From assembly GCA_944990035.1 (NCBI GenBank), contig CALYLX010000093.1:62001-126000 (forward strand): a stretch of 64,000 bases of DNA. Reading direction: 5' to 3'. The notes under the pieces are model-generated. The model was not told the origin of the DNA. It was given only the letters and a program-made list of their open reading frames with translations, and did no database searches. The translations under genes and the position numbers were made by a program. This document shows, piece by piece, positions 22,444 to 44,136 of the stretch. The stretch comes from Clitopilus passeckerianus (lineage: Eukaryota > Basidiomycota > Agaricomycetes > Agaricales > Entolomataceae). Position 1 is the stretch's first letter, and each line of letters starts with the position of its first letter.

Positions 22444-23639
22444 ATGCCTTTCGGAGAGATCGTCTGTGGTGCCCCAGGCTCAGGCAAATCCACATACTGC
22501 TACGGCAAGCACCAACTTTTCACGGCCCTCAACCGACCAATTTCTGTCGTCAACCTCGACCCCGCAAACGACAACATTTCATATCCATGTGCTGTTGACA
22601 TATCCTCCCTGATAACTCTAAAAGATGTCATGGAGGAGCACGGACTAGGACCAAATGGCGGCCTCATCTATTGTATGGAATATCTAGAAGTCAACTTTGA
22701 TTGGTTGGAGGACCGGCTGAAGGAGCTTGGGCACGATGCCTATGTGCTCTTTGATCTCCCTGGTCAAGTGGAGCTGAGTACGAATCACGATAGTGTGAAG
22801 AGGATTGCGGAGAGGTTGACCAAGCTTGGATTTCGGGTGAGTGGCTCCAACTTTGATGGTGTGGATGGTGATAGATGGTAATGAAGCTTGCTGCAGTGCA
22901 TTTGTGCGATGCGCACTACGTGACGGATGCTTCGAAGTATATCTCGGTTTTGTTGCTTTCGTTAAGGACGATGCTGCATCTGGAGTTGCCGCATGTTAAT
23001 GTCCTGTCGAAAGTGGACCTGATACAGCAGTATGGGGAGCTAGGTTCGTAATATTATCAGACACATCTGTACAATATCTCACCATTCCTTACGATAGACT
23101 TCAACCTGGATTTCTATACCGAAGTCCAAGATCTATCATACCTCGAGAACTCCTTATCTGCGTCCCTCCCACCAAAATACGCCTCCCTAAACATGGCCAT
23201 GATCTCGCTCGTAGAGGACTACAATCTCGTGGGGTTCGAAACCCTAGCAGTTGAGGTACTTTCCTTCCACATTCCTCCCTTATCCCTAGTAATCATCCAT
23301 TAACAGGACAAAGACTCCATGCTCAACCTAACCCGCGCCATCGACCGAGCAACAGGCTACGTCTTCGTCCCTCCCCCTTCCTCCTCCCTACCACCAGGAG
23401 CTGTGGACACACCAGATCAAGCCGCACCATCTCACAGGCCGAACGAATACGCACTATTTTCGACGGCTGCTGGGGCGCTGAAGGGAGAGAAGAGCGATAT
23501 AAGGGATGTGCAGGAGAGATGGGTCGATGCGAGGGAGGAGTGGGATGCGTTCGAGAAGAGGAAGTGGAGGAAGGAGGGGGAGTTGGTTAGGGATGCTGTG
23601 GCGAGGGAGAAGGCGGGGAGGGAAGAGGGGAAGACGTAG
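22444..23639 (+). CDS. GPN2: GPN-loop GTPase 2
   Basis: GPN-loop GTPases act in assembly and nuclear import of RNA polymerases. The start [20 protein letters not shown] carries the P-loop; the invariant Gly-Pro-Asn loop is in [14 protein letters not shown], and the G3 motif in FDLPGQVEL. After a 50-bp intron (about 22836-22886) the protein continues [20 protein letters not shown] and the base-recognition motif LSKVDL. Further introns lie near 23045-23098 and 23258-23306. The C-terminus ([20 protein letters not shown] and a basic tail) ends at TAG 23637-23639. Start and length (about 360 aa) fit the family. Degenerate copies of this gene's last 200 or so bases occur at 34.87-35.03 and 36.93-37.17 kb; this is the complete and presumably only functional copy. 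Confidence 0.92.
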
Positions 23640-23907
23640 GTGAGGATTGGAAATGTTAGCTGTTAGAAGATAATGTCCTGGTTCGATCTTCGCTTTCAAT
23701 GAGGCCCTCCAAGCAACCCAGGCCCATATCCCATAGCATAGGCTATTCCGAATAGTCGTTTGTGGCCTTCACAATAGTACAACAGTTGGGCAACCAGGAT
23801 GGTGAATACTGTAGAGCGAAAGCAGAATGTGTTCATGTATCCTTATGATAAGGAATACAAGTATTTATAGTGCCACGCGTAGCCTTCTTTTTTCTCTTGT
23901 ACCACGA

Positions 23908-24470
23908 CCATGGGCGACAAGCCAAGCCCCTATCAGTGGTTCACATCTTCAGCTCTATTGTAGGTCGAGGGTGCTTTGTCCACTTACTTACCTGGTTATG
24001 CAGCGCCTGAGGGCGACATTCTAGAGAATCAGATCAAGGTTTTCGACGATGGGTTTATCAAGAAGACTATTCATAGAGAATAGTCTTATCAAGTATGGCA
24101 AGACCTCTACAACCGTAATTAAGCACTCATTGAGTCGACTTGCCTTTATGTCGATGATTCCTAACAGTGAAGTGCTGGCATCCCCAACAGAACTTGGCCA
24201 ATCAAGGAGTTTCCTAGATACTACGTCGCTCAACTCAATCTGTTCCATTAGCCGTGACCATTACGACCAAGTCATCGAGAACCTCGACGAGGAGTTTTCG
24301 CCGGTCGCCTTGCTCTTCATATCGACTCGATCAGGCAATATATAACCTAAATGTAAATATAGTGTTAGCGATTTGTTTCCTCGAATCAGGTGCCACTCCG
24401 ATCCAGCCATCGTTTCTGGAAAGTATTATCTTCATCGATCTCTCCAGGCCCAACATCTTCGCTAGAGCGG
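23908..24470 (+). pseudogene. Decayed UstYa-like (DUF3328) gene copy
   Basis: A broken relative of the two intact UstYa-like genes at 27.2 and 33.7 kb. The promoter-proximal sequence and start (accacgaccatgggcgac, ATG 23910) match, but the region coding for the N-terminal cytosolic part and the membrane helix is deleted, so the start codon runs almost directly into the GSHLQLY segment. Exon 2 (DILENQIKVFDDGFIKK) meets an in-frame TAG after TIHRE. Exon 3 (SPTELGQSRSF region) and the exon that should carry the first HxxHC motif are shifted or lost, while scattered matches continue to the CHSDPS-coding segment near 24390-24423. No functional product is expected. Confidence 0.85.
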
Positions 24471-25094
24471 TTAAGAGACGACTTAGTTGTTAGACCATAA
24501 TGGGTCTGCAAAGGAGAGGACAAACAGTAATGGAAAGTACGCCGCTCACCCTCATGTTCCATCGATTCGGGAGTAAGGAGATGCCGAGTAAACTATTTAG
24601 ATGGATTTTACCCTTTGCAGATAATCGACGTAGCGACTCCCTGAAGGAACCCTCGCTGGCTAATTAACCTTTTCTTCGAAACTCAACAATTCATGCTGGG
24701 TGGTCGGAGCGGTAAAGTAAGCGCCTATCAATCTAGTTCACGTCAGCGTCGCCGCTTAGCAGACCTAGCCTGGGTCGACTGCTGTAGAACGATGCTGCCA
24801 TTTTCTGATTTTACGGTACGGTTCACCTTTTACTTCATTATACATCATATCGAAGCGTTTCCTCGCAAGCCAGTTCCGCACCCTGCGGTTTGAGAGATGT
24901 CAGGCTGTCATTCATGAAATCCATGTGGCGGCAGGTTACAAACGGTTACTAAGGGTCGTAAATGGTGAAAAGAGACTTTGTATCGAGTTATTCATATCAA
25001 GTAGCAACGTGTATTTGGAAGTTCGAAAGGAGAAATCTGGATAAAGAAGATTAGATAATAAAATCATGGTCACAAATTCTACGAGTGCTTACCA
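24471..25094. other. Intergenic, 3' flank of precursor P1
   Basis: No gene seen. The sequence near 25025-25065 (atctggataaagaagatta) recurs downstream of precursor P3 near 31890-31910, and in weaker form near 37460, so the duplicated unit includes 3' flanks of the precursors. Confidence 0.6.
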
Positions 25095-25148
25095 TTCTAA
25101 GGTGCCCCATCCACCAACCCACTGGGATGGGAATACAATGTCCTCTTA
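25095..25148 (-). repeat. Decayed ninth core repeat beyond the P1 stop codon
   Basis: Directly after the TAA of P1 the same frame reads EDIVFPSQWVGGWGT and stops again at TAA. It aligns with the core repeat (DIVFLPQSVGGWAPG), so the stop probably arose within a formerly longer array. Confidence 0.75.
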
Positions 25149-25925
25149 GGCTTTGGCAGCCTCTTCGCGCTTGCCAGGAGCCCATCCGCCAACAGACTGG
25201 GGAAGGAAAACGATGTCGTCATCGGCTTTGGTAGCCTCCTCACGCTTGCCAGGAGCCCATCCGCCAACAGACTGGGGAAGGAAAACGATGTCGTCGTCGG
25301 CTTTGGTAGCCTCCTCACGCTTGCCAGGAGCCCATCCGCCAACAGACTGGGGAAGGAAAACGATGTCGTCATCGGCTTTGGTAGCCTCCTCACGCTTGCC
25401 AGGAGCCCATCCGCCAACAGACTGGGGAAGGAAAACGATGTCGTCGTCGGCTTTGGTAGCCTCCTCACGCTTGCCAGGAGCCCATCCGCCAACAGACTGG
25501 GGAAGGAAAACGATGTCGTCGTCAGCTTTGGTAGCCTCCTCACGCTTGCCAGGAGCCCATCCGCCAATAGACTGGGGGAGGAAAACGATGTCGTCGTCGG
25601 CTTTGGTAGCCTCCTCACGCTTGCCAGGAGCCCATCCGCCAACAGACTGGGGAAGGAAAACGATGTCGTCGTCGGCTTTGGTAGCCTCCTCACGCTTGCC
25701 AGGAGCCCATCCGCCAACAGACTGGGGAAGGAAGACAATGTCGTCGTCGGCTTTGGTGGCCTCTCCACGACGTTCTAGGTCATAAAGCACAGCTCAGAAT
25801 CTGATAACAACGGATATGAACGAAGACTAACCAGTCGCAAAGGTATGAGTCCCTGCGTCAATGGGTGCAGCTAAGGCTCCGAAGGCAAGTAGGGTGAGTT
25901 GAAGAAGAGCAACCGAGAGCTTCAT
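25146..25925 (-). CDS. Precursor P1: secreted Kex2-processed repeat peptide (putative RiPP precursor, 8 cores)
   Basis: A 240-residue secreted precursor. Exon 1 (25832-25925) encodes signal peptide MKLSVALLQLTLLAFGALA and a short pro-region APIDAGTHTFAT. A 57-bp intron (25775-25831) follows in phase 1. Exon 2 (25146-25774) opens with ERR and carries eight 25-residue repeats, each a KREEATKADDD spacer followed by IVFLPQSVGGWAPG; one repeat has SIGG in place of SVGG. The KR pairs are Kex2 sites, and the EEA after them recalls the EA trimming signal of the yeast alpha-factor precursor. The stop is TAA 25146-25148; in-frame sequence beyond it resembles a decayed ninth repeat. The layout matches precursors of UstYa-dependent fungal RiPPs (dikaritins), and intact UstYa-like genes lie nearby; the head-to-head neighbour is at 27189. 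The product has not been shown. Confidence 0.9.
25149..25770 (-). repeat. Eight 75-bp tandem repeats of P1
   Basis: Direct repeats of period 75 bp, nearly identical in DNA; most differences are silent (for example GAT/GAC in the Asp run) and one changes Val to Ile near 25566. Because the period is a multiple of three and stop codons are absent, other frames are open too; only the frame joined to the signal peptide is taken as coding. Confidence 0.95.
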
Positions 25926-27188
25926 CGTTGCGGGAGTGCTGAGGGAAGAGAGGCTTGTTCTCGAAATACCACTGCAGGGCGGTGTTGTCTACCGAAAGCT
26001 GGCACCTGTATTTATATCGTCGAAGAACTCTGCAAGTCAGCTCAGAGATTACTCGCGTCATCTGAAATCACAATGAGCTCAGAGTCATTAGCCTTAGTGG
26101 TTCAGGGTATTTCCAAAACCAACATGCCGTCTATCAATCTTGACACGAAGGGGGTGCATTCCAGGATCCACCGAATAAACGCTAGCGAATAGGATTCGGA
26201 ACAATAGAAGTCGCCTGATATCATTTCCTCCGACTCGAAAGTTGAGTAATGATCTCTGTGTGAGTGTCATTATACCGAGATGAAGATAAGAACCGTGAAG
26301 CCCCCACTGGCAAGAATTCGGTTCGTATGAATAAGGTCGGACTCGGAGCGGTATGGGGTATCTAGAGCGTCCAACCAGTCATTGAACAGTTTGAGCAGTT
26401 CCCAACCAACAGAGCCAGGGAGAAAACAGTAAGCGAGAAAAATGAAGCCCCGGAAAACCCATCCGAAAGGCAGTCGTTCCAGTGATGAAGCTATCAGACA
26501 CGACCAATCTAGCTGTCGAAATTCTGCCCCACACTTCGTCAAAAATAGCTGAAATGCACCGGAGCACAAGAATAAAAGCCTTGTGTTTCTCATTTAACAA
26601 ACCGCCACCTCGTTTTGTTCGAGCTAGAAGCCCATTTCAATCGCTTTAGCAGACGTCCTGGCGTTCATGTAGATTAAAGGTCATAGCTGAGTTGCACGTA
26701 CTAACTGGCATATTGGAGCCACGGGAAGAAGAATATCTGCCGCAGCAAACAATCGGTGCACCAATAAGAGTTCGCGCAGTGAAGTACTTTTGACCTCTGG
26801 AACCTGAACAAGTCGAGAGAGTCGTGGGCGCCGGAGAAGAGAACGGCCGGTCTAACCTGCCAAGTGCTGATCAAATAGTTAGATAGGGCATCCTTATTTA
26901 GCCAGGCCATCATTACATAATCGCTCCCTCCACCAATGACCTGTCGCCTGGTTCGCTCTATCCTTTCTCTCTGGCTGGTGTTCCCGAGGAGTAGAAAGGC
27001 TTTTAATATTGTATCTTCTTTTCGCATCGGCTACATGCATAATTTTCGCTGTCATTGAAGAGCAACCGAATTAGGATGATCACCATCTGCTTGAGGCCCA
27101 CCGTTCGGACTTGGAGCTCGCTGCTCAACTATCCTTGTAATAGGGTATTGGTTGTCACGAGTAGCCTTCTTTCCCTCGTACCACGACC
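25926..27188. promoter_or_regulatory. Divergent intergenic region between P1 and UstYa-A
   Basis: This 1.26 kb separates P1 (minus) from UstYa-A (plus). The P1-proximal part is conserved with the regions upstream of P3 and P4. The UstYa-proximal part carries a block at 27015-27085 (from cttttcgcatc to ccgaattaggatgatcacc) that recurs at 33302-33387, 33541-33626 and 36843-36938. Short open frames in the middle (26270-26600, 26701-27027 minus) have no recognisable content. Co-regulation of the pair is likely but inferred. Confidence 0.65.
26009..26016 (-). promoter_or_regulatory. TATA box of precursor P1
   Basis: TATAAATA on the minus strand, about 85 bp upstream of the P1 start codon. The same element sits at matching distance before P2, P3 and P4, inside a conserved stretch with GGTGCCAGCTTTCG-like sequence upstream of P1 and P3. 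Confidence 0.75.
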
Positions 27189-28266
27189 ATGGGCGACAAG
27201 TCTGAAGCCTATCTGCCTCTTATGACTGCCGACCCCGAGTCGCCAACAGGGGAGGCCAATAGAGAATGCAATTGCGGACGACATATCGGTGACGGTTATG
27301 ACACTTCCTCGAGAAAGACACGACGCTTTGCTATCAGGAAAGAAATACTATTGCTAGGTGTTGTCTTCGTTCAGGCGGTGGCCTTCATCCTACTACTACT
27401 CGCTTTCCGGAGGTCGACTTCTGCCTACGATCGGTTGGTTGTCACTTGCCGAGAGACTGGCAGTGGTTCCCATCTTCAGCTCTATTGTACGTTGATGGCA
27501 TACTCTTTCTTGTTCAGTCCACTTATTTGACTCTGCAGCGCCCGCCAATGACATTCTAGAGGATCAGATCAAGGTTTTCGACGACGGCTTTATCAAGAAG
27601 ACCATCTATCAAGAGTACTCGGATGAGTCTGATCAAGCGTGGCAAGACTTGTACAATCGTCAGTTTAGTTGAAGATTCAGCTACTGAGGATCGCTCATCT
27701 AACAACCATTCTACTTAGGCACGATGATGAAGATCCCCAAGAGTGAGGCCGTTCTGCTACCCAACAGAACTTGGCCGATCAAAGAATTCCCCGGCTACTA
27801 CGTCGCGCAACTCGACGTATTCCATCAGCTTCACTGCGTGGTACGCACATATGCCGTCGCCAACGTACAACTACTGAGTACTCCTTTAGAACAAAGTCAG
27901 GCAAGCCCTTCGCCGAGACCGTTACGACCAGCTCCTCAAGAACCCCGAGGATGAATTTGCCCCCGAACACCTCGCTCACTGTGTGGACTCGATTAGGCAA
28001 TACGTGATGTAGGCTTCGTCTCTTCTCTCTCAAGAGTCAATGTTAACAACTTCTTTCCTTGCGCCAGGTGCCACTCCGACCCATCTATCGTCTTCTGGCA
28101 ATGGGATCCTAAAGATCTCGTGGTCCGACCTCGCCTCGAGTACCCTCACATGTGCAAGAACTTCGATAAAGTCCGAGCATGGGCTGGCGAAAGGCATATT
28201 GATAACTATATTGATCCTAAGGTTTTCGTTGAAGATGACATTCCTCCACCTGCTATTATCTATTAG
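27189..28266 (+). CDS. UstYa-like (DUF3328) membrane oxidase A
   Basis: A member of the UstYa/DUF3328 family, copper-type oxidases that cross-link or cyclise core peptides in fungal RiPP pathways. Exon 1 (27189-27486) encodes a cytosolic head MGDKSEAYLPLM, a basic stretch RKTRRFAIRKE and one membrane helix LLLGVVFVQAVAFILLLLAF. After a 52-bp intron come SPANDILEDQIKVFDDGF, then TMMKIPKSEAVLLPNRTWP, GYYVAQLDVFHQLHC and, across another intron, VNKVRQALRRDRYDQ. HQLHC is the first HxxHC motif and HLAHCVDSIRQYVM carries the second. The last exon runs from CHSDPSIVFWQW to DDIPPPAIIY and TAG 28264-28266. All five exons join in frame, so the gene looks functional (about 250 aa). It faces P1 head to head and is very similar to the copy at 33716. 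Confidence 0.92.
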
Positions 28267-28855
28267 ATGCTGTTGACTTTATGGACTCTTTAGAGCTTCG
28301 GCAGACTAGTTAATGTATGGTTCTTGCAACAAGTCGCCCTCGACTAATCGAAGCTTAGAGACGGAATGCCTTCATACAACAGGCCGGTTGGCTCTGCCTG
28401 GTTAAGTAGAAAGGGCTATGCGTACGCCGTTCGTTGGTTTCCTCAGTCTGCTAGTTTCGGGGTAGACACGGTGGTATTATCATGGGACAATATGAGATGG
28501 GATACAATAGTACCAATAACTAATGACCATCGTATGGGATGCGACAAGACCGGCGCCCTCAAGAACAACTCCATCGGATGCGTTGGGCGGCTTCAAGTAC
28601 AGCAGGCAGAACCTCCTTGCCAGACGCCGATGGTGGGGCTGTTTAAGGGGCTTACGGCTCACGAAGACGCTACACTAGAAGCTGCTGTTCGCCCAGCCGG
28701 AGAGACATTCGGCAAGGGAGAAGACAGAAGCGCCTATCGAGTGAATCATCTCAGGGAGACATATTATTGTGGAGGTGCAAAACAAAGGGGACAAAATCTG
28801 CTCAAAGGGACCTAGTAGATTAAGTGATACATGCATTCTGTTAGTTCGGAAAACT
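28267..28855. other. Intergenic between UstYa-A and P2 relic
   Basis: An open frame at 28366-28815 (plus) has no recognisable motif and overlaps the 3' flank of the decayed precursor, so I do not call it a gene. Confidence 0.5.
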
Positions 28856-29303
28856 TCAGAGCCACGGGAGAAGATATAAATGGAACTCAGTGTCAGCCTT
28901 GACGTAGGCAGCCTCCTCGCAGATGGGCTGCTGGGTAATATCGAAGGCGCGGTCAGTGTCCGCTTCGCCAGTCTCTTCACGGCTCTCTATTTTGGGAGGG
29001 CCACGGTATGGAAATGGGTGGTAGGTGTTGTTGGTGTCAGCGTTGGCATTACTTAGCCGTGGTGGCCTCCTCGCGCCTGTACCATTGATCCGCAATACCG
29101 TCAGAACCAAGGTTCCTGTCGGCCTTGGTAGCCTGTTCACGACGTTCTGAATCATGGATGCCATGTCAAAACCAGGTGATTACTAGTACGGTGTGGAGTG
29201 AGGACTCACTCGCCGGCCAGAACGGTGCTACCTGCATCAATCGGTGTGGCCTGAGCAGCGAAGGCAAATGGGCAAATTGAAGGAGCGGTACGGAGAGTTT
29301 TAT
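28856..29303 (-). pseudogene. Precursor P2: decayed member of the P1/P3/P4 precursor family
   Basis: This matches the precursor family in layout: a signal-peptide-like stretch, the TPIDAGS pro-region, an intron at about 29145-29202, and an exon opening with ERREQATKAD. Several lesions are visible. The position of the start codon reads ATA (29301-29303). A one-base shift lies within the signal-peptide coding stretch. After REEATTAK the frame meets TAA, and further repeat-like sequence (REETGEADTDRAF, EEAAYVKADTEF) continues in another frame. The core segments are diverged, for example NLGSDGIADQWY. A TATA box remains at 29390-29397. It is probably dead. Confidence 0.75.
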
Positions 29304-30222
29304 TATATATCTTAGGAAGTTGTGAGAGAAGAGGGACTCGTTCTCGAAGTAGCACTGTCCTGCGATGTCGCCCTCGACAGCCGCCTCCTTATTTATAACG
29401 TCCAGAACCTCTCTAATTGAGGCCAACGCTGCTTTCGTTATCAAGCATGGCTATGGGCTCAGAGCAGGCCACTCTTGACCTTGAAACATGGTCTGTTCGA
29501 AAGGTTTGCAAGAGTCACATACGCTCCATCCATAGTAGAGGGGTCCGCTACATAATACAAGGGCTAGTCGGAGACGAATAGGAGAGTTCCCTGATATCAA
29601 GTTGGTTCGGTAATGGAGGAAGACTCTGGAAATACAAGCCATTGCAAGGCCTCCTGGGATGAATGACTTGGAGGCGATCCAGTCACAGGAAAATTGATTC
29701 ATACGGTGACTTCGGAGTATTACTTGTGTCAAATATAGTTTCCAGGCCAGAAATTGCGGTCTAGGTCACCGCGACGCATTAGCAGTATGGAGATCGTGTT
29801 CATGAAGAAGAATTTATCTGAACTTTGCACAAGTGGCAAACATAATGGCCCGACTTCAAGATTGCACAAGATATGATCACATAAGAAAAGTTCCCAGGCT
29901 CCGGCATTTCCCCTGTACGCCATTTTCTCTGAATCTGACGTTCAAGAGCAGCCGGCAATTGAGTTTCCCATCTACTTCATGGTCGAATAATATCTCGGCT
30001 CAGGATGGCGCTAAAGCTTGCCTGAGGGTATCTAAGATTGCTACTGGGAGCCGTCTTCTTTCGCCCCGAACACGATCACGACCAGAAAGACTGAAGTCTA
30101 CCTGCCTCTGCGAACGTCGACGTCATGAGTAGTACTTGGTATCCAAATCCAGGCCGTAGGAGTCAGTCCGAGTCAGCCTTGTCAAGATTTATATCAAGAA
30201 GACCCTCTTAAGCAAGATCTAA
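29304..30222. other. Intergenic with UstYa-like relics
   Basis: This region stands where a UstYa gene divergent from P2 would be expected. Near 30040-30125 the sequence resembles the start of UstYa-A (gactgaagtctacctgcctc against gtctgaagcctatctgcctc), and near 30185-30212 a fragment resembles the FIKKT-coding stretch of exon 2. The remainder shows no gene. Confidence 0.45.
29390..29397 (-). promoter_or_regulatory. Retained TATA box of the P2 relic
   Basis: TATAAATA on the minus strand about 87 bp upstream of the lost start codon, the same spacing as in P1, P3 and P4. Its retention suggests decay of P2 is recent. Confidence 0.55.
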
Positions 30223-31063
30223 ATGTCTCGTCAACTTGACCAGACGCTCATTGGCACAATATTGGCAATACGTGGTGCGATGGACAAAGACATCCGAGTC
30301 TCTGAAACTCAGCGGGCAGCCTTTCCTCCGAGTCATGGGCAACATGTTACAGCAGGTCACATCCGAGTCACCCCTTCAACAGTAGCGCCCAATCCACTCG
30401 ATCAATTCCGTGCTTGGTTCAAGGAAGCGGTCGAAGGCGGAACAGTCCATGAACCCGAAGCCATGTCGCTATCTACGGCTTCAAAATCTGGGATTCCGTC
30501 CTCCCGTATGGTCGCCTTTAGGCAGCTTGACACCCGGGGTTTCGTGTTCTACACGAACTATACCTCCCGCAAGTCCCAGGAGCTAGGCGAAAACCCTTAC
30601 GCTTCCCTCGTCTTCTACTGGCGAGAGATCCAGCGTTCCATCCGAATCGTCGGGAAAGCGGAGAAACTCAGCAGAGAGGAGGCCGAAGAGTACTGGAACT
30701 TGTATCCGATCAGCAGCAAACTCAGAACCTGGGCTAGCAGGCAGAGTGCAGTTGTTCGGGAGGGCCAAGTACAAGATCGTATGCGCAAGCTGGAAGAACG
30801 GTTTTGGGTCCATAACGCTTCTTCGGCCGTCGTTCCAGTCCCGGATTTCTGGGGCGGTTGGAGAGTTATCCCTCAGTGAGTCCCTAAAACCGGTCGCCAA
30901 ACAGGTTCAGATGCTTCAACCGTATTCTGACTGCACTACCTGTAGCGAGATTCAATTTTGGTCCGGTAAACCTTCACCAGTACATGATCGTATTCGCTAT
31001 CTTCGTGAAGAAGGTTGTAAAGATGGTAATATCAAGTGGAAGATTGACCGACTCTCCCCATGA
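30223..31063 (+). CDS. Pyridoxamine 5'-phosphate oxidase paralog with altered active-site motif
   Basis: PNPOx-fold flavoprotein. The family oxidises pyridoxamine or pyridoxine phosphate to PLP using FMN. Recognisable segments are NPLDQFRAWFKEAVEGG, EPEAMSLSTASKSGIPSSRM, FVFYTNYTSRKSQELGENPY, ASLVFYWREIQRSIRIVGK and DFWGGWRVIP. A 70-bp intron (about 30877-30945) then leads to EIQFWSGKPSPVHDRIRYLR and the WKIDRLSP terminus (TGA 31061-31063). The usual C-terminal active-site motif is RLHDR; here it reads PVHDR, so the substrate-phosphate/PLP-contacting Arg is replaced by Pro. The segment NLYPISSKLRTWASRQS also departs from the family. Start 30223 has an extended N-terminus; ATG 30280 is an alternative. 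It sits inside the RiPP-like locus between two precursors and may be a diverged paralog or an accessory gene. Confidence 0.85.
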
Positions 31064-31993
31064 TGGATCATCTGATGCTAGTACGCCAGTAGTCTCCATC
31101 TCTTAGAATCCGACTGCTCAGCCTGGCTGCCGATAAATCAGGATCTTTCATAACCACCACTGATACCCAGTCAAAGTCTGTTAAATTGAACTTCTAAGAT
31201 CAACCGGTCTCGCGGGGTAACCGTGCTCCGATCTGTTGCTGCGTAAGGAGAGGGGAAGATAGCGAGTCCTCAGACTACTATGGCCGAGTTTCCAACTGTA
31301 ACGAGAGATATATAATGTATGCTTCAAGATGAATCGATTGTAGGCTACGGTTGGTCACTATGCTGAAGCTCCTCCCAAATGATCTGAGTCAGTAACTATA
31401 TGAGGGATGGGTGAACCTGAATCGAAGGGAAAGGCCTGGGACGGTCGGGATTCACTACACCACCGTGACCGGTTCAACTTGGATCTACGGGTGAGAAATG
31501 GATCGTTTGCTGACATGAGTTACCCTTTGAAGACTCTGATACTGTATGTTGCCTCTCACCCTTCCTTGCTCTACCCATCTCAAAAACTGTTCTTAACACC
31601 GGTGTTGTTAGGATACCTACCGCCGGAACACTGGTCGAATGTTATAAGCCGCCAACGTATCTAAGTACCTTGACAGCATTATACTCCACATTACGATGCT
31701 CAGCTGCAAATCTGGCAGTGTCACGGAGGCTGGGAGATAGCATACGCCGGTACAATCATTCGTCAATGCATTCGTCAGACTGTTACAACTAGGATGATAA
31801 AATGGCGGGAATGTAAAAGGTGTTTGCAAGCTACCGCACAGTGTTCCTACTAGGGGGAGATGCAATTCCTGGAATCTAAAGTAGGGAAACAATCTGGATA
31901 AAGAAGATTAGTCTCGGAAATTGTGAATTGTGATCGGAGCAATGCTAACCACAAGAAGCTACCTAACAACGGCGATAGAATGTAGATTAGATC
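31064..31993. other. Intergenic, 3' flank of P3
   Basis: No gene seen; a few unsupported open frames. The part near 31880-31910 matches the 3' flank of P1. Confidence 0.5.
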
Positions 31994-32359
31994 CTAGTCG
32001 GAGGTGGCAGCCTCTCCACTCTTCAAGCCCCAGTGGTAAAGGAAGGTGGCGTCAGCATCGGCTTTGGCGGCCTCTTCACGCTTCGTGCTCCAGTTGGTGT
32101 AAAGGAGGGCAGTGGCGTCGGAATCGGCTTTGACAGCCTCTTCACGCTTCGCGCCCCAGTTGTAAAGGAAGGTGGCATCGGCATCTGCTTTGGCAGCCTC
32201 TCCACGACGTTCTAGGTCATAACGAACATGTCAGGACCCGATAAGCACAGGCATGAGCGAAGGCTAACCAGTATCAAAGGTATGCCCTGCGTCGATAGGT
32301 GCAGCTAGAGCACCGAAGGCAAGAAAGCCGAGTTGAAGAAGTGTAACCGAGAGCTTCAT
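31994..32359 (-). CDS. Precursor P3: secreted Kex2-processed peptide with three different cores
   Basis: A 102-residue relative of P1. Exon 1 (32269-32359) encodes signal peptide MKLSVTLLQLGFLAFGALA and pro-region APIDAGHTFDT. A 57-bp intron (32212-32268), same length and phase as in P1, is followed by exon 2 (31994-32211) opening ERRGEAAKAD. Three repeats follow, with KREEA(A/V)KAD(A/S)D spacers and cores ATFLYNWGA, ATALLYTNWST and ATFLYHWGL. Each core has a Tyr and a Trp, residues of the kind cross-linked by UstYa-type oxidases. The last unit ends with KSGEAATSD and TAG 31994-31996, lacking a final KR. Unlike P1 the cores differ, so one gene could yield up to three peptides. It pairs head to head with UstYa-B at 33716. 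Confidence 0.9.
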
Positions 32360-33715
32360 CGTTGAAGGAGTGCTGACGGAAAAGAGAAGGGGTTCGTCTC
32401 GGAGTACCACTGTAGTGCGGTCCCGTTCATCGAAAGTTGGCACCTGTATTTATATCGTCGGGAGACTCTGCAACTCAGCCCAGAGATTACTTGTGTCATC
32501 TGAAATTAGTACAATGAGCTCAGAGCGGTACGGAGCATCTGCAAAAACCACATGCCGTCTATCAATTTTGACACGAAAGAGGTATATTCCAGGATCCACG
32601 GAATAAGAGCTAGCGCGTGGAAGCATTAGAAGGCTCCTCGACGGGGTCAGTTCACCGTGGACGATAAGAAACGTGGCATTTCCCAGAATTCGGTGTGTAG
32701 AGATACTCCAAAGGTATATGTTGAGTTCAAAGTCCAGTCAGCCATTGAACAGCTTGAGCAGAGCCCGACTAACGGACATATGATGAGAAGAGTACCATGA
32801 GCGAAATAAAACCCTGGAAGGCCAGTGGTGGAGCTATCAGACGTGGTTCAGACGAATCCATTTGTCAAAATGTGCCCCACACTTCGTCAAAAGCTGAGAT
32901 ACATCAGAGCACAAGAACAAAAGCCTGGTGCCTCTCATTTGAGCCACAACCTCGTTCTGTCAAGCTCGAATGCTAGAACTCCATCTCAATGGCTTTCGAT
33001 TTTACATTGGTGGACGCGCCAGCGTTCTAGACCATAGCTTAGTTCCATGTATAATACACAATGTTCCAGCGTATTCGGCCGCATAGAGAAAATACATGTC
33101 TCAGAAAAGGGTCAGAGAATGGTCAGAGTAATAAGAGTTGGCACCTCAGAAGTACTTTCGACCTCGTGGTGCTAGTGAAAGAAACAGCCTAGTGCCGATC
33201 AAATAGTTGGATCCTCTATAGTAGGCAAGCCATCCCGGGCCATTGCCCCTGTCCTTTCTCTCAGTAAGCTAATTTTTCTTCTCTGAGGCGAAGTGGAGAG
33301 GTTTTAATATTTTACCATCTTTTCGCATCTCCTGCATCCATAATTCTCGTTGTGACATCCAAGAGCAGCCGCATTAGGATGATGGCACCAGGACCTCTGA
33401 TGAAATCTTGAAACCCAAGTACATATTGATGATCCCGGTCTGAATCTTTTGTTCTAAAAATATCGGACAAGTCGCTTTCAACTTTCCAGTTGGGTGGAAA
33501 CTTCCTCCTCGAGACAGGTGCCAAGTTCAACGTGGGGAGGATTTTCATTATTGAACATTCTTTTCGCATCTGCTACCTGCGCAATTTTCGCTGTCGCTGT
33601 AGAGTAGCCGAATTAGGATGATCCCCGACGGGCACCTGGTGACATCTTGGGCCCAAGTACCCTCGTAATAGCGTATTGATCGCCACGCGGGCACTCTTTC
33701 CCTCTTACCATTACC
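32360..33715. promoter_or_regulatory. Divergent intergenic region between P3 and UstYa-B
   Basis: Same layout as the P1/UstYa-A intergenic region: a P1-like promoter next to P3, a middle with no gene, and the UstYa upstream block present twice in tandem (33302-33387 and 33541-33626, about 235 bp apart). Confidence 0.65.
32447..32454 (-). promoter_or_regulatory. TATA box of precursor P3
   Basis: TATAAATA on the minus strand, 88 bp upstream of the P3 start, within a stretch strongly conserved with the P1 upstream region. Confidence 0.75.
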
Positions 33716-34786
33716 ATGAACGACAAGTCTGAGGCATATCTACCTCTAATGGGTGGGGACCCTGAGTCGCCAACTGGGGAGTCCAATCAAGAATTCCACT
33801 GCAGGCATGCCAGTGACTCTACGAGAAAGAAACGTCGCTTCGCTATCAGGAAAGATGTTCTATTGCTTGGTGTTATCTTCGTTCAGGCTGTGGCCTTCAT
33901 TCTACTACTACTGGCCTTCCGGCGGTCCAGTTCTGCCTACGATCAGCTCGTTGAAACTTGCGGAGCCACTGATAGCGGTTCACATCTCAAGCTCTATTGT
34001 AGGTTGATGGCACATTCTTTCCCCTTCATCCTGCTCACTTGGCTCTGTAGCGCCCGCCAATGGCATTCTAGAGGATCAAATCAAGGTTTTTGACGACGGA
34101 TTTATCAAGAAGACTATCTATCAAGAGTACTCGGACGAGTCTGACCAGGCATGGCAGGACCTGTACAACCGTCAGTTTGGTGACACCTACAACCATATTT
34201 TGGCCAGCTAACATTCCTTTGGATTAGGCACGATGATGAAGATCCCCAAGAGTGAGGCCGCCTTGTTACCCAACAGAACATGGCCAATCAAAGAGTTCCC
34301 CGGGTACTACATCGCGCAACTCGACGTATTCCATCAGCTTCACTGCGTGGTACGTACATAGCCCTCGTCATCAATTCCAGCTACTGAGTTTCCCTTTACC
34401 TTCAGAATAAAGTCAGGCAAGCCCTTCGTCGAGACCGCTACGACCAGCTCCTCGAGAACCCCGAGGAGGAATTTGCCCCCGAACACCTCGCTCACTGTGT
34501 CGACTCCATCAGGCAATACGTGATGTAGGCTTCTTCTCTTCTGTCTCCCCCTAAAGTGAATATTAACAACTTCTTTTCTCGCATTAGGTGCCACTCTGAC
34601 CCTTCCATTGTCTTTTGGCAATGGGATGCCAAGGACCTCGTGGTTCGACCTCGCCTCGAGTACCCTCACATGTGCAAGAACTTCGATAAAGTCCGAGAAT
34701 GGGCGGGCGAGAGGCATATCGACTACTACATTGATCCTAAGGTTTACGTTGAAGACGACATTCCTCCACCTGCTATTATCTACTAG
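33716..34786 (+). CDS. UstYa-like (DUF3328) membrane oxidase B
   Basis: Close paralog of UstYa-A with the same exon layout. Exon 1 encodes MNDKSEAYLPLM, the basic KKRRFAIRKD stretch and a membrane helix LLLGVIFVQAVAFILLLLAF. Later exons give SPANGILEDQIKVFDDGF, TMMKIPKSEAALLPNRTWP, GYYIAQLDVFHQLHC, VNKVRQALRRDRYDQLLENP, the second motif HLAHCVDSIRQYVM, and CHSDPSIVFWQW through DDIPPPAIIY with TAG 34784-34786. Both HxxHC motifs are present and no stop interrupts the spliced frame. Differences from copy A are concentrated in the N-terminal head, while the lumenal catalytic part is almost unchanged. It is the head-to-head partner of P3. Confidence 0.92.
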
Positions 34787-35607
34787 GATGCCCTTGATTC
34801 CATAGATTCACCAGAACTCCTGTACAAGCTGTGAAAATTAGGTTATCACGATCTGTTTTGTTTTGACCAACTGGCAGGAGCCGTTGCTGGGCGCGCTGAA
34901 TATGAGGGATGTACAGGAGTCGGAGGCGTGGGATACCTCTGAGATGCGGCGAAGCGTGGCAGAGAGGGAGAGTTGATTAGGGAGGCTGCGGCAATGGGGA
35001 AGGCGAGGAATGAGGAGGGGAGGGCATAGGGTATATTGATTGCTATTCGCCTCCCGGTGTAACTTTTGCTGCTTTGAGTTTCCTGTGGCTCTCCAAGTGA
35101 AAATATATCAATTCCTCGTACTGCTACAACGATTGGATATGGCGGTCTCGAACAGCGAAAGATTTGGAAAGAAGAGAACTTGAAGCACAAATAAAAGTCA
35201 TTCTAAACATTCGCTTATCGAAGCTGAGAATGATGCATCCAATTCAAGATACAAAGTGTATATATGGAAGGAAGGAGAAAGAGCCTGGTACGAGGGCATT
35301 CTGGACTGATTTTTGGGTTTGAATGACGATTTAGGAAATGATCCATTGGCTCATACGGGGTACGTTCGAGAGAGTCTGATACGCTAGATCTACGCATGCG
35401 GCCTTTCAGTCTTCTGCTCACTTTTCTCGGAAATGCATAACTAGTCACTACGAACGCGCAAATAACGGCGATTTCAAGGCACCTGGTCGGGAAACGACCC
35501 CGAATAAATCACAATTAATCAACAGCATCATAAACAATGATACGCAATCTGCGAATGCTTACCCGTCGAAATAATTCATCTACCAGCGAGAGGCAATTCA
35601 GACAAGG
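34787..35607. other. Intergenic, contains a GPN2 fragment
   Basis: No intact gene. The first part holds the GPN2 fragment listed separately. The remainder, including a short open frame at 35215-35448 (minus), shows nothing recognisable. Confidence 0.55.
34870..35032 (+). pseudogene. Degenerate 3'-end fragment of GPN2
   Basis: Sequence such as gggatgtacaggag, gagttgattagggaggctg and gaggaggggagggcatagg aligns in order with the last about 190 bp of GPN2 (23.46-23.64 kb), including the region of its stop codon. It has deletions and no open frame. It marks a duplication boundary inside the RiPP-like locus. Confidence 0.8.
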
Positions 35608-35941
35608 TCAGTGGGCCTTAGTAGTCTCCTCACGAAATTCTAGGTTATAAAGAAGATGTTAGAGCCTGATAAGCGCCAAAATAAACGAAGAACCGTCGCG
35701 CTTCTTGGGGTTGGCCCAGCCGTGAGGGAGATAAACGAAGACGTTATCGGTGTCGGCCTTGGCCGCGGCAGCATCTCCACTGACACGACGTTCTGGATGG
35801 TTGTTGCCTGTCAACAAACCCAACGATTAGACAGAAAAGTGATGACTAACCAATGGAAAAGGTATTCCCTGCGTCAATGGGTGCAGCTAGGGCGCCAAAG
35901 GCAAGGGGGGTGAGTTGAAGAAGGGCAACCGAGAGCTTCAT
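35608..35941 (-). CDS. Precursor P4: secreted Kex2-type precursor with a single core
   Basis: Third apparently intact precursor. Exon 1 (35851-35941) encodes MKLSVALLQLTPLAFGALA and APIDAGNTFSI. The intron 35794-35850 again is 57 bp and in phase 1. Exon 2 opens ERRVSGDAAAAKAD and gives one core TDNVFVYLPHGWANP followed by KKR. Two endings are possible: read through to TAA 35659-35661, or splice a 54-bp intron (35640-35693, branch site CTAAC) to a third exon FREETTKAH ending at TGA 35608-35610. The second reading restores the family's REExTKA spacer and is preferred. The apparent intron and its flank resemble the family's first intron, as if an intron-exon unit had been duplicated. It lacks an intact UstYa neighbour of its own. 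Confidence 0.8.
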
Positions 35942-36933
35942 TGTTGTAGGAGCGCTGAGAGAAGACAGGCTTGGTTCCGAAATACCGTTGTAGTGTGGGC
36001 CTGTTCTTCGAAAGTCACCCCTCTATTTATATCATCGAGACACTCTACAAGTTGGCTCGGGTATTACTTGCGTCGGCACAAGGGTCTTTGAGCCACGAGC
36101 CCTTGGTCGGTTCCGTCCATTTGCACACACATCGATCTTGACACGAAGTGGGCGCATTTCGCAATCCATCAAATAAGCGCTAGCAGATAGAAACAATAGA
36201 AACTGTCTGATATCAGTCCTTCGAACTAAAAGTTGAGTAGTGATCTCTGTTCGAGTGCCGCTATACCAAGAGGACAATAAGATGTGTGAGGCTCACAAGA
36301 AGCCGGGTCGTATGGGAAAAGTCAGAGCGGTATGTGGAACCAGTTTAGAGTGTTCAGCCAGCCATTGAACGGGTTGAGCAGTGCCAGAACAACGCAGTCC
36401 AAGAATGACATAACACTCGAGAAATGAAGCCCCGGAGAATATATCCAAGAGGCAGTCGTTTCAGTGATGAAGCTGTCGGATACGATCAATCCAGATGGCG
36501 AAAATCAGCGCCACACTTCGTTGAAACGAACTCAGATAACGAGGACAATAGCAAGTACCTTGTATTTCTTGTGTAACAAGCCGCCGCCCCGGTCTGTTTG
36601 GGCTAGTACCTTTAGCAGATGAGCGGGCATTTACGGTAATCCATATACGAGTAGCTGGGTTGTATAGAGTAGCGTTCCCGGCGTGAGGGCTTGGTGTTGA
36701 AGCTATTTGAAGGGCTAGGACTCTTTTTATGGGACAGTAGGTTTTAGACACAATATGAGGTCATACAGGCTGTTGACCTCTTGAGCTTGGATGAGTCAAA
36801 TAACTGTCCGTTCGCTCACTGTGTTCCTGGTCGAGAGGGTTTCTAGTATATTTTGTCTTCTCTTCGCGCCTACATGCGTAGTCGACGTCTTCGCTGTCAT
36901 CGAAAAGCAGCCGGATTAGTATGGTCACTATCT
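35942..36933. other. Upstream region of P4 with an orphan UstYa promoter block
   Basis: Promoter of P4 and a copy of the UstYa upstream block at 36843-36938 (tcttcgcgcctacatgcg through ccggattagtatggtcac). Instead of a UstYa gene, the block runs directly into a GPN2 fragment, so the oxidase of this unit has been deleted. No other gene seen. Confidence 0.65.
36024..36031 (-). promoter_or_regulatory. TATA box of precursor P4
   Basis: TATAAATA on the minus strand, 83 bp upstream of the P4 start codon, in a stretch resembling the P1 and P3 promoters. Confidence 0.7.
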
Positions 36934-37168
36934 GCCACCAGGAGCCGTTGACACTTCATTGCCAAGGCAGAACAAATACCCATTGTTCTCGACGGCTGCC
37001 GAAGCCCTAAAGGGGGAGAGGAGAGCGGTATTAGGACTGTACAGGAGAAGTGAGTTGATGCAAGAAAGGAGTATGACGCTTTTGAGAAGAGGAAGTGAAG
37101 AACGGTGTTTTTGTTAGCTAGGATGTGGCGAGGGAGAAGGTAAGAGATGAGGCAGGGAAGACGTAGGC
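36934..37168 (+). pseudogene. Second degenerate 3'-end fragment of GPN2
   Basis: From ccaccaggagccgttgacac to gcagggaagacgtagg this aligns with about 240 bp at the 3' end of GPN2 (23.39-23.64 kb): ttctcgacggctgc, gggagagaagagcg-like, cttttgagaagaggaagtg and tggcgagggagaagg occur in the same order. Stops and small deletions break it. Confidence 0.88.
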
Positions 37169-37523
37169 AGCCCAGAGGTTGTGGTTTTTGTCAAGTCACT
37201 GAATACTGTGTGAGACGGAGGCCTGGTTTGATAACAGGCGCTCCGACGCAAGCCAACTATGTATCAGCATAAAAGATTTCAACCGACACATCATTGCCGC
37301 AAGTCAAGGAAGGTCACGCGGTTTGACATAATGTAAAACCATTCATAAATGTATTCGTCAGTATGGTAGAATCATCGGACAATTTGGATAGTAGACAGCG
37401 AAAAGGGATGGAAAGCTACAAAGGGGCAATTCATATCAAGCGGCACATGAAAGTGGGGAGACAATCTGGACAGAAACATTCAGCCATGAGAATCGTGACC
37501 ACACAATCTGTGGATACTGACCA

Positions 37524-37665
37524 TCAAAAGGATCCATTCATAAGCGGGCATAATGTAGACAAGGCCTCGTTGGCTGTGGCCGTCTCCTCTCGCGTTCCAA
37601 TCCAACTCCTGAAGGCGATGTTGCTGTCGGCTTCGGCGGCCTCCTCGCGCTTCTTAGCCTAACCA
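37524..37665 (-). pseudogene. Precursor P5: orphan repeat fragment of the precursor family
   Basis: On the minus strand KKREEAAEADSNIAFRSW then TREETATANEAL and a short tail to TGA 37524-37526. This is the spacer-core-spacer pattern of the P1/P3/P4 family with a core SNIAFRSWIG. No signal-peptide exon was found upstream; the sequence there belongs to the unrecognised gene. Either the exon is truncated or it has been captured as a 3' exon of that gene. Its 3' flank also resembles that of P1. Confidence 0.6.
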
Positions 37666-38830
37666 AAGAAGGTGAGGTCGGTCGGAAGAAAACGCAGCGA
37701 GGATACTCTTTGTCTTGGTCCATATCGCAGCAAAGTGTGCGTTGAGGCCGCCCTGAGTAACAGAGGTGGCTTGATAGTAGCCTTGAAGAGAAGTCTCTTT
37801 AATGAACAACTCCCAAAGCGGAGACCAATCGACGGTGAAGTCGGGACCACCTGGGCAATAGGGTTCAGTGGTAATCTGGTCGTATCGTGGGACAGCCACA
37901 CGGATCTGGCTTGCCTCCAGATATAGGGCCTGTTTCCGTATGGCTCGGTAGATGGCTGCATGGTCACAGATGATGATGAACGACAGGTCAGCCGCATGGG
38001 CAATCAGATGGACCTTTGCCCATGCTGGAATTACGGGCTGGGAAATCGGGATAGTGTTAGGGATGGCCGAACGAAGATGAGCTCGACGTAGTCGCGGAGG
38101 ATGGGATCCTTGAAAATTAGCTAGGCAATTGTCCGGCACTGCACAGGGGAAAGAACACAGGTCTGGAGCAATGCGAGGACCATGAGATCTATCCAGGAGA
38201 ATGCGACCGTCGTGGGAGGTGACGTAGAAGATGACTGCTACCTCCCAGTTGCTGAACTCGGAGTCAAGCGCCCTGTAGACAAGTTAGAACTAAAGGTACA
38301 CAATCTGTGATAGGAACGTACTCGGGCTTTTCTTGTTCGCTATGGAACAAGCGAATCCTACTCTTGACATACAGGACTACCTCTTTCTCGCAGAGAGCCT
38401 CGACCCGAAGTGAGTTTGACTTGTAGTCATGTTGGCCACAGTTGGCCGTCCGACCAGGACCAAGTTGTTCGGTATTGAGCAAGATACGTCTCTCGCACGT
38501 CTGAAGAGGTGCTTGTGAGGATATCACCGTAGTTGGCTGCGGAGAGCCAATTATGGCCAAGAACCCCGCTGACCTCCTGTCGTGTACCTGAGAAGACAAT
38601 GTCAGGGTGAGCGCCAATCCGTCTGTCAACTCGACATCGTCAAAGAGCTTCAGCCCTTCTATAGAATTCGTCAGAGGAATCTCAACTTTAAGAAGGCTTA
38701 ACTCACTCCATGAGTTTCCAGGCCATTTATTTGCGTCTCCTCCTCTTGCCAGTGGTGGAATTGCAAAACACGAGAAAACCGGACACGGTTTCACGACATC
38801 GAATTGAGGTTGATCCTCTGTAGTTTCAGA
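37666..38830 (-). CDS. Unrecognised spliced gene, boundaries uncertain
   Basis: Several stretches join in frame through good introns, which argues for a real gene. QFDVVKPCPVFSCFAIPPLA with NKWPGNSW can be joined over an intron near 38650-38700 to KGLKLFDDVELTDGLALTL; then NSLRVEALCEKEVVLYVKSR with LFHSEQEKPE is joined across a 49-bp intron (38273-38321) to ALDSEFSNWEVAVIFYVTSH and DGRILLDRSHGPRIAPDLCS. Downstream, IPAWAKVHLIAHAADLSF and RVAVPRYDQITTEPYCPGG continue to about 37666. I do not recognise the family. The 5' end may extend beyond 38830 (segments at 38917-39126 and 39255-39638 could be exons), and the join near 38060-38140 is unclear. No signal peptide or catalytic motif was seen. 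Confidence 0.4.
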
Positions 38831-39254
38831 AGATGTTCTAGCATCTTTCAGCCAGATACATTAGCCGAACTGTACTGAGAGGTGCTTGAATTTAAACGCA
38901 AGGAACATTTAGACGATTATTGACGACGAGTGGATGAAGGATCAACGTTCAACCTCAACAAGTAGAGGGGTACAAACGCCGAAGTCTCCGCCAGAAAATG
39001 ATTGAGTATATGGCCAGGGGTCGATGCCGAAATTGTCTCCACTCCAAAGCCAATCTCAGCTGCCGCATCTCCCATGAAGTTCGTCAAAGTGGACAAAGCA
39101 AAGACAAAGTGGCAATCTTGGCACAACGTCCGACCAAAGGTTTACAGTTATGGCTATTGGATCTTGCGTCTAAATATCACTCCCATCCGAAGGGCTCCGC
39201 TGATACTGTGAAGGGTTCGTGCAGCCTTTACTTGGACAGTTGGACCACAATTCA

Positions 39255-39638
39255 GCTAGTCAAAGGGTCTTGCAAGGGATGAACGAGCAGGGAACAGGTA
39301 CAGGAGAGTGATTGCACAGTAAAGTAAAGCCGTGTGTACCTTGAGGAGACTATATATAGAGCGCCGTCCGAGAACACAGGGATCCAATGATACCGGACGC
39401 CGAAATGACCTTTGTATGTTTTGAGGATCTTCGGTCGGCCTGAAGTGCAGCAGTACTAACCTATTGCTTGGGTCAGACTACTTGAAGCCACCGAAAGCTT
39501 ACCGTCGCCTCGAATTCTTCTTAGCAAGTGTATAGTAGTTTCGGATACACCTTTGACGAATGTATGTTCAGATGAAAGGAGCGGATTCACTGGTCCAAAA
39601 GTTGATGATTTGGGTACTAACTTGAAGTCGGATGGCAC
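39255..39638 (-). CDS. Possible small gene or 5' exons of the neighbouring gene
   Basis: An open frame MPSDFKLVPKSSTFGPVN through LLRRIRGDG can be spliced (donor GTAAGC, acceptor TTCAG) to RPKILKTYKGHFGVRYHW and IPVFSDGALYIVSS. The splice signals are decent but the product is short and unrecognised. It may instead belong to the gene on its left. Confidence 0.25.
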
Positions 39639-43833: not shown

Positions 43834-44136
43834 ATGAAGTTATTCGCTATCTCCCTCGTTGCAGCTCTTATTTCCGTCGTAGCTGCTGCTCCGTCGCCCA
43901 ATCACGTTGCTGGTCATGTTCAAGAAGCAGACACGGTCGATAAAAGAACACCTCATCATGTTGCTGGTCATGTTCAAGAAGCAGACACAGTCGAGAAAAG
44001 AGCACCCCATCACGTTACCGGCCACGTTCAGGAAGCAGACACGGTCTATAAAAGAACACCCAATCACGTTGCTGGCCATGTCCAGGAAGCAGACACGGTC
44101 GACAAAAGAACATTTGTTAGTTATAACTACATATGA
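43834..44136 (+). CDS. Second Kex2-processed repeat peptide precursor (His-rich)
   Basis: A 100-residue secreted precursor in one exon. ATG 43834 begins the signal peptide MKLFAISLVAALISVVAA. Four 18-residue repeats follow, of form P(N/H)HVAGHVQEADTV then (D, E or Y)KR and T or A; one repeat has HVTGHV. Each ends in KR, a Kex2 site, and the protein ends TFVSYNYI with TGA 44134-44136. An upstream in-frame ATG at 43756 would place 26 residues before the signal peptide and is unlikely, given the TATA box at 43739. Processing should release near-identical His-rich 16-18-residue peptides. No UstYa gene is intact next to it. It could be a RiPP precursor, a peptide signal or a metal-binding peptide; I cannot decide. 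Confidence 0.85.
   Translation: MKLFAISLVAALISVVAAAPSPNHVAGHVQEADTVDKRTPHHVAGHVQEADTVEKRAPHHVTGHVQEADTVYKRTPNHVAGHVQEADTVDKRTFVSYNYI
43895..44112 (+). repeat. Four 54-bp tandem repeats
   Basis: Direct repeats of 54 bp (18 codons) in the His-rich precursor, with most differences in the third codon position and at the residue before KR. Confidence 0.9.

Follow-up and report, generated by a model that had tools for sequence, protein, structure and literature searches.

Paired Kex2-repeat precursor and UstYa-family genes in a duplicated array of the mushroom Clitopilus passeckerianus

Gene content and layout of the array

The window (the whole 64,000-nucleotide stretch of Clitopilus passeckerianus DNA analysed here, G000:C93:62001-126000 of a 64.8-Mb assembly) holds an array in which genes of the UstYa (DUF3328) family are interleaved with genes for putatively secreted precursors built of Kex2-flanked repeats. 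The first-pass annotation had counted two intact UstYa genes, one decayed copy and a relic, along with five members of one precursor family. Both counts were upheld, the former by PF11807 matches, open gene models and a 55-nt relic (U1 to U3 below), and the latter by three open precursors (P1, P3 and P4), a decayed one (P2) and a fragment (P5). The features of the array are as follows.

25146 to 25925, minus strand: P1, precursor with 8 units (exon 25925-25832, 57-nt intron, exon 25774-25146)
about 28860 to 29303, minus strand: P2, decayed precursor (the leader position lacks an ATG and the repeats fall in two frames)
31994 to 32359, minus strand: P3, precursor with 3 units (exon 32359-32269, 57-nt intron, exon 32211-31994)
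35659 to 35941, minus strand: P4, precursor with one core unit, TDNVFVYLPHGWANP, in an open frame
about 37560 to 37652, minus strand: P5, precursor fragment (KREEAAEADSNIAFRSWIGT; tblastn E 2.7e-7 within a 401-bp subject)
23871 to 24422, plus strand: U1, decayed UstYa copy (72-86% nucleotide blocks to U2/U3)
27189 to 28266, plus strand: U2, full-length UstYa-family gene (five-exon open model, 285 aa)
33716 to 34786, plus strand: U3, full-length UstYa-family gene (five-exon open model, 280 aa)
30055 to 30109, plus strand: relic of a UstYa start, divergent from P2 (55 nt, 73% to U2, E 3e-4)
25926 to 27188: P1/U2 divergent spacer, 1263 bp from ATG to ATG (TATAAA at -91 relative to the P1 ATG)
32360 to 33715: P3/U3 divergent spacer, 1356 bp from ATG to ATG (TATAAA at -95 relative to the P3 ATG)
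34900 to 35030, plus strand: relic of the GPN2 3' end, a mark of segmental duplication (68% to 23497-23640)
36965 to 37167, plus strand: second relic of the GPN2 3' end (74% to 23436-23640)

The three open precursors have a common layout. Exon 1 encodes a signal-like stretch and APIDAG, a single phase-1 intron follows, and in exon 2 ERR opens the units, which are separated by KR or KKR. The signal, the APIDAG pro-region and the 57-nt intron of the earlier description were recovered exactly in P1 and P3; the intron modelled for P4 is of 58 nt. The unit of P1 reads (G/E)EATKAD-DDIVFLPQS(V/I)GGWAPG-KR, and the cores of P3 are ADATFLYNWGA, SDATALLYTNWST and ADATFLYHWGL. If an alternative acceptor present in this DNA were used, the core of P4 would be removed by splicing; no UstYa partner was found adjoining this gene. 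Tandem Repeats Finder independently reported the arrays of P1 (8.8 copies of 75 bp, score 1162) and P3 (3.3 copies of 60 bp, score 245). These scores, together with the recurrence of the family at UstYa loci, led us to reject chance repeats. With 8 and 3 repeats between dibasic sites, respectively, and a signal peptide judged by eye, P1 and P3 were classed as Kex2-processed repeat proteins (KEPs). The minor Pfam matches of P1 (TMEM131_like_N, SH3_9 and GspH) were discarded, as no stretch passes alone and they look like repeat artefacts. The precursor family had seemed unfamiliar at first sight and remained so: when compared with a set of 5.8 billion proteins, the precursor had no relative at E<=0.1 among the 7987 best word-sharing candidates scored.

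U2 and U3 matched the PF11807 (UstYa) profile at 2.9e-43 and 1.7e-43 (148.7 and 149.5 bits versus a cut-off of 25). Both carry HQLHC...HLAHC and an N-terminal hydrophobic stretch, LLLGVxFVQAVAFILLLLAF, judged by eye to be a putative membrane helix. In U1, most of exon 1 is gone between the aligned blocks and the matched stretch 23988-24266 contains six stops, introns included. Seventeen proteins matched U3; 14 of them, from Cyathus, Coprinopsis, Flagelloscypha, Mycena, Sistotremastrum and Gymnopus plus three JGI entries, align at 34-50% identity over at least 57% of U3, and the remaining three are short pieces. NCBIfam returned no family for U3 and one chance match for P3. The absence of methyltransferase and peptidase genes noted earlier agrees with the Pfam scan, in which none was found among 20 of the 22 window open reading frames (ORFs) of at least 160 aa, a scan that short-exon genes could escape.

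The unit of the array is a module comprising a precursor and a UstYa gene placed back to back across a 1.1-1.4 kb spacer. Three divergent pairs occur in the window (P1-U2, P3-U3 and P2 with the UstYa relic), and the P1/U2 and P3/U3 spacers have sequence blocks in common. TATAAA is located at -90 to -95 before the ATG in all eight precursor copies of the window clade (-90 in P4). In other precursor types, found elsewhere in the genome, it lies at -90 (stretch L039), -68 (L041) and -70 (L042); upstream of the precursor on contigs C26/C123 no such box was seen. Since relics of the 3' end of GPN2, the neighbouring gene, sit inside the array, longer segments than the module were copied. The joined GPN2 protein shares 83% identity with its counterparts in Tephrocybe, Lyophyllum atratum and Tricholoma furcatifolium, 82% with that of Crucibulum and 84% with the top match, as judged from the best 120 of 5238 matches with 7997 candidates scored, which places the fungus in the Agaricales. 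A PNPOx (pyridoxamine-phosphate-oxidase) gene is situated mid-array at 30223-31063 (plus strand), directly after the UstYa relic, and aligns to contig C142 too.

Two haplotypes are present in the assembly, and the stretches of C93 and C142 align mostly at 85-93%. The near-identical overlaps of the C141 end with the C93 start (99.9%) and of the C79 start with C142 (99.3%) probably reflect redundant assembly. Alignment of the window with stretch L038 showed that the block 34789-39499, which includes P4, P5 and the GPN2 relics, is absent from the syntenic place of haplotype C142. The alleles of P1 have 8 units and 5 units (C142), with V or I before GGW, those of P3 (C93 versus C142) differ in two of the three cores, and the C142 allele of P2 is likewise broken.

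Recurrence of the precursor-UstYa pair across the genome

A genome search with U3 gave 101 exon matches, seven of which were weak ones to distant UstYa genes. The others corresponded to 24 gene-like places of the U3 clade and two fragments, and spliced models were built for 23 of these places (all but U1). When alleles and contig ends had been merged, 11 distinct UstYa-clade genes at 10 loci were obtained, U1 uncounted. Nine loci are present in both haplotypes and one, C74, was seen once; its UstYa copy lacks an ATG at the aligned start and requires a frame skip.

A canonical repeat precursor was identified at six of the ten loci, five of these being found in both haplotypes. Two are the U2 and U3 loci of the window. 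The others are C93:35.6k/C142:44k, with nine units SDATFHRSSNGGWYYG; C74, with the core GFRLGSPAGWSIGPP; C93:173-176k/C142:185-188k, with two UstYa genes and the core DIFFYNWGEEVNA; and C26/C123, with the core LQRGGYWPT. Two further loci, C142:761k/C94:146k and C142:816k/C94:75k, contain candidate precursors with signal-like starts, which repeat SLFPKFVWS or PRPLWNGEWLH without clean KR sites. The precursor candidates of L041 and L042 have related leaders (E 1e-4), and their UstYa genes are sisters in the tree. At 6807-7356 and 9874-9996 of L041, SLFPKFVWSRK cores seemingly occur one per exon with a second copy nearby, an unusual multi-core layout.

The order of the two genes is divergent at seven of the eight precursor-bearing UstYa loci, C26/C123 being head-to-tail. 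The genome search with P3 retrieved 12 places at E<0.02, and 11 of them lie within 4 kb of a UstYa-clade gene; these are not independent events, because the copies are related by duplication. No KEP was found beside distant UstYa genes in 22 stretches among L001-L030 (2.5-3.6 kb each), a control of little power because the same short flanks show a KEP in only one of eight own-clade stretches. The earlier claim that a basidiomycete combines UstYa genes with Kex2-repeat precursors was borne out by the Pfam match, the gene models and the recurrence of the pair. Because the pair recurs in the genome, a working link between precursor and UstYa is likely.

Selection on UstYa genes and composition of the cores

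The ratio of nonsynonymous to synonymous substitution rates (dN/dS) was 0.11 between U2 and U3, 0.107 between U2 and its C142 allele and 0.059 between U3 and its C142 allele. Three more allele pairs with full UstYa models gave values of 0.155, 0.121 and 0.106 and a partial one 0.035, and two distant UstYa pairs were saturated at synonymous sites. The UstYa genes are under purifying selection, with dN/dS of 0.06-0.16 for the best models. The HxxHC...HxxHC arrangement is kept in 21 of the 22 UstYa models compared. In the exception, L040 (G000:C142:200911-201638), HQLHG replaces HQLHC, and the C93 allele retains the Cys.

The leaders, spacers and cores of five paralogous precursors, entered by hand, were compared in ten pairs. 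The mean identity was 0.65 for leaders, 0.69 for spacers and 0.31 for cores, versus 0.17 for shuffled cores. In these sequences, the leaders and spacers are conserved, and the cores diversify around a nearly constant Trp. In 17 hand-picked distinct cores, Trp was found in all 17, Phe in 14 and Tyr in nine, and the P1 core is without Tyr. This selection omitted the P2 and P5 units, a remnant at C93:59k/C142:67k, near-identical variants and two Trp-less units. Among the omitted units, Trp is present in two of the four of decayed P2, in P5 and in the C93:59k/C142:67k remnant. The C93:176k/C142:188k type has a Trp-less NYAHLGDEVQE or NYAHFGDEVQE, depending on the haplotype, and the last C142 unit has R for Trp. 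As Trp-less units exist in P2 and in this type, Trp is nearly, not fully, constant.

Two features of the window lie outside the array. A separate KEP-like gene at 43834-44112 (plus strand), MKLFAISLVAALISVVAAAPSPNHVAGHVQEADTVDKR, contains four repeats that carry His but lack a Trp or Tyr core, and shorter relatives of it occur in L032, L036, L038 and L046. At 1929-5106 (minus strand), an ORF with a NACHT domain adjoins a WD40 ORF, with a 126-bp unit repeated 7.6 times at 95% match; we take this to be the pattern of fungal NOD-like receptor (NLR) genes with renewed repeats.

Proposed working, alternatives and known systems

We interpret the array as copies of a precursor/UstYa module in which UstYa is predicted to oxidise the cores, likely by a Trp side-chain cross-link, before Kex2 release, and we assign this reading a probability of about 0.6. 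Each step beyond the gene models is one that we infer. The precursor would enter the secretory route, and the membrane-anchored UstYa would act with a pair of copper ions in the lumen of the endoplasmic reticulum or Golgi, in the manner of the family member CctR, which is reported to be a two-copper, O2-dependent homodimer centred on its HxxHC motifs (PMC12435403). The constant leader and the xEAxxAD spacers may form the recognition part, the core being free to change. UstYa would then oxidise the cores, the likely outcome being a side-chain link at Trp, and Kex2 and Kex1 would cut at KR. The product would be a modified, possibly cyclic, secreted peptide, the sequence of which varies by duplication and allele. 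Genes with a P-domain (PF01483, kexin-type; on C125) and with DPPIV_N are present in the genome.

Several observations weigh against this reading. Eight of the 23 UstYa spliced alignments need a frame skip or hold a stop, and dN/dS reached 0.235-0.419 in four UstYa allele pairs with unsure models. No precursor was found at two of the ten UstYa loci (C93:59k/C142:67k and C93:188k/C142:201k), beyond the remnant mentioned above, a short core-like piece at the first of them (SDIIFEWG and SDIIYNW). Orphans, precursors that lack a UstYa match within 100 kb, are located at C59:374k/C139:262k, C82/C83 and C141:286k/C79:305k; they are related to the C93:176k and C26 types, and the precursor-UstYa pairing is therefore strong, not strict. 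The precursors of L033/L039 include units without Trp, and in the survey of Umemura 2020 the Trp content was not higher beside DUF3328 (20.5% versus 24.5%; PMC7329392). A search of the PDB by sequence and profile found no meaningful solved relative, and the AlphaFold model of the Cyathus relative, P0004, is poor (pLDDT 57). Finally, the agaricomycete KEP peptides reported as detected are linear or minimally modified, several ending in Trp, so that Trp alone is no mark of a UstYa substrate (PMC9769878).

This last finding and the orphan precursors fit the main alternative, which we consider rather unlikely, namely that Kex2 simply cuts the precursors into linear peptides of an ordinary pheromone-like or signalling kind and that the neighbouring UstYa has another substrate. 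Alpha-pheromone-like KEPs are known in basidiomycetes (PMC6339444), and the units of L033/L039 open with AP, as would suit a Ste13 dipeptide. The divergent pairing at seven of the eight precursor-bearing loci, which extends across clades with unlike leaders, argues for a UstYa that serves its neighbour, as does the purifying selection on the enzyme. Moreover, the residues following KR in the window family (EE-AT-KA-D) are out of the Ste13 dipeptide register (rule in PMC6339444). An alpha-pheromone in the strict sense was rejected for this family, as the positions after KR do not read XA/XP; units start with EEATKAD, DEAAVAD or SEAAEAD in the window family and C26/C123.

Alternatively, UstYa could modify the cores without forming a ring, by hydroxylation, halogenation or desaturation. 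DUF3328 members have been reported to hydroxylate, halogenate and cyclise (PMC12435403), and the single or double UstYa gene of each module is compatible with more than one reaction. We regard ringless modification as doubtful, since the ustiloxin, phomopsin and asperipin pathways are reported not to achieve cyclisation without DUF3328 proteins (PMC7329392), and the placing of Phe, present in 14 of the 17 cores, ahead of Trp, present in all 17, would agree with a link between two residues. It is very improbable that the array is a decaying remnant from which no peptide is made, as the decay of U1, P2 and the 55-bp relic, the partnerless P4, the fragmentary P5 and the damaged C74 UstYa copy would suggest, because U2 and U3 have open reading frames, as do their alleles, at dN/dS of 0.06-0.11, and each haplotype retains open copies of P1 and P3 with the TATA box conserved.

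Returning to the oxidation of the cores by a paired UstYa, we tentatively suggest, as a possibility that is likelier to fail than to hold, a broader form of this reading: mushroom UstYa copper enzymes may cross-link Trp rather than Tyr, each with its own precursor, to give an in-house library of cyclic peptides bridged at Trp, with cores that change through duplication of the module and are not the same in the two haplotypes. One genome supplies matched precursor-enzyme pairs with differing cores, as well as alleles, orphans and decayed copies. The pairs make it testable, with one enzyme and one precursor each, whether mushroom UstYa modifies KEP cores, and where. If Trp is the site, this would be a new type of cross-link for a copper enzyme family useful in cyclic peptide making.

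In the literature surveyed, the UstYa-type ribosomal peptides for which products are known are of ascomycete origin, and the basidiomycete KEP/DUF3328 pairs are genome-mining counts. A literature search in which subscription journals were thinly covered returned no UstYa-Trp link and no basidiomycete UstYa product. In Pleurotus, 16 UstYa-like genes have been reported, and six show developmental expression (PMC8893723). The dikaritins (ustiloxins, phomopsins, asperipin-2a and victorin) resemble the window system in combining a UstYa-family enzyme with a multi-core Kex2 precursor (PMC9233826). The kinship with dikaritins proposed in the first-pass annotation holds for this gene content; dikaritin-like chemistry is doubtful in detail, because the known rings of these ascomycete products are formed at Tyr (Phe in victorin; PMC9233826), P1 has no Tyr in its core and the near-universal residue is Trp. 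In addition, dikaritin clusters are described as including peptidase genes and, in many cases, genes for tyrosinase or further tailoring enzymes (PMC9233826), none of which was seen among the 20 window ORFs scanned.

The agaricomycete KEP peptides have Kex2 repeats and, in several cores, Trp in common with the window family; several have XA/XP Ste13 dipeptides, whereas the window family has xEAxxAD spacers (PMC9769878). The main text of that report does not contain the terms UstY or DUF3328. The plant burpitide cyclases (BURP) are alike in working only: they are two-copper enzymes, the lyciumin type of which bonds the Trp indole N to carbon, and belong to a different protein family (PMC12186524). 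The nearest likeness is with the KEP/DUF3328 set of Umemura 2020, in which 103 of 1680 basidiomycete KEPs have a DUF3328 gene within 15 genes (PMC7329392). As such pairs had already been counted there, the designation of the locus as a new system of ribosomally synthesised and post-translationally modified peptides (RiPPs) was overstated. That set and the window family have in common a signal peptide, Kex2-flanked repeats and a close DUF3328 gene; going by the descriptions alone, the latter is set apart by multiplied divergent pairs, two haplotypes and a Trp-centred core, and the DUF3328-linked type P-3 of the survey has W with P (PMC7329392). The combination of KEP and DUF3328 is thus already known in basidiomycetes, and what is new here is a Trp-centred, paired and multiplied family, not a new class.

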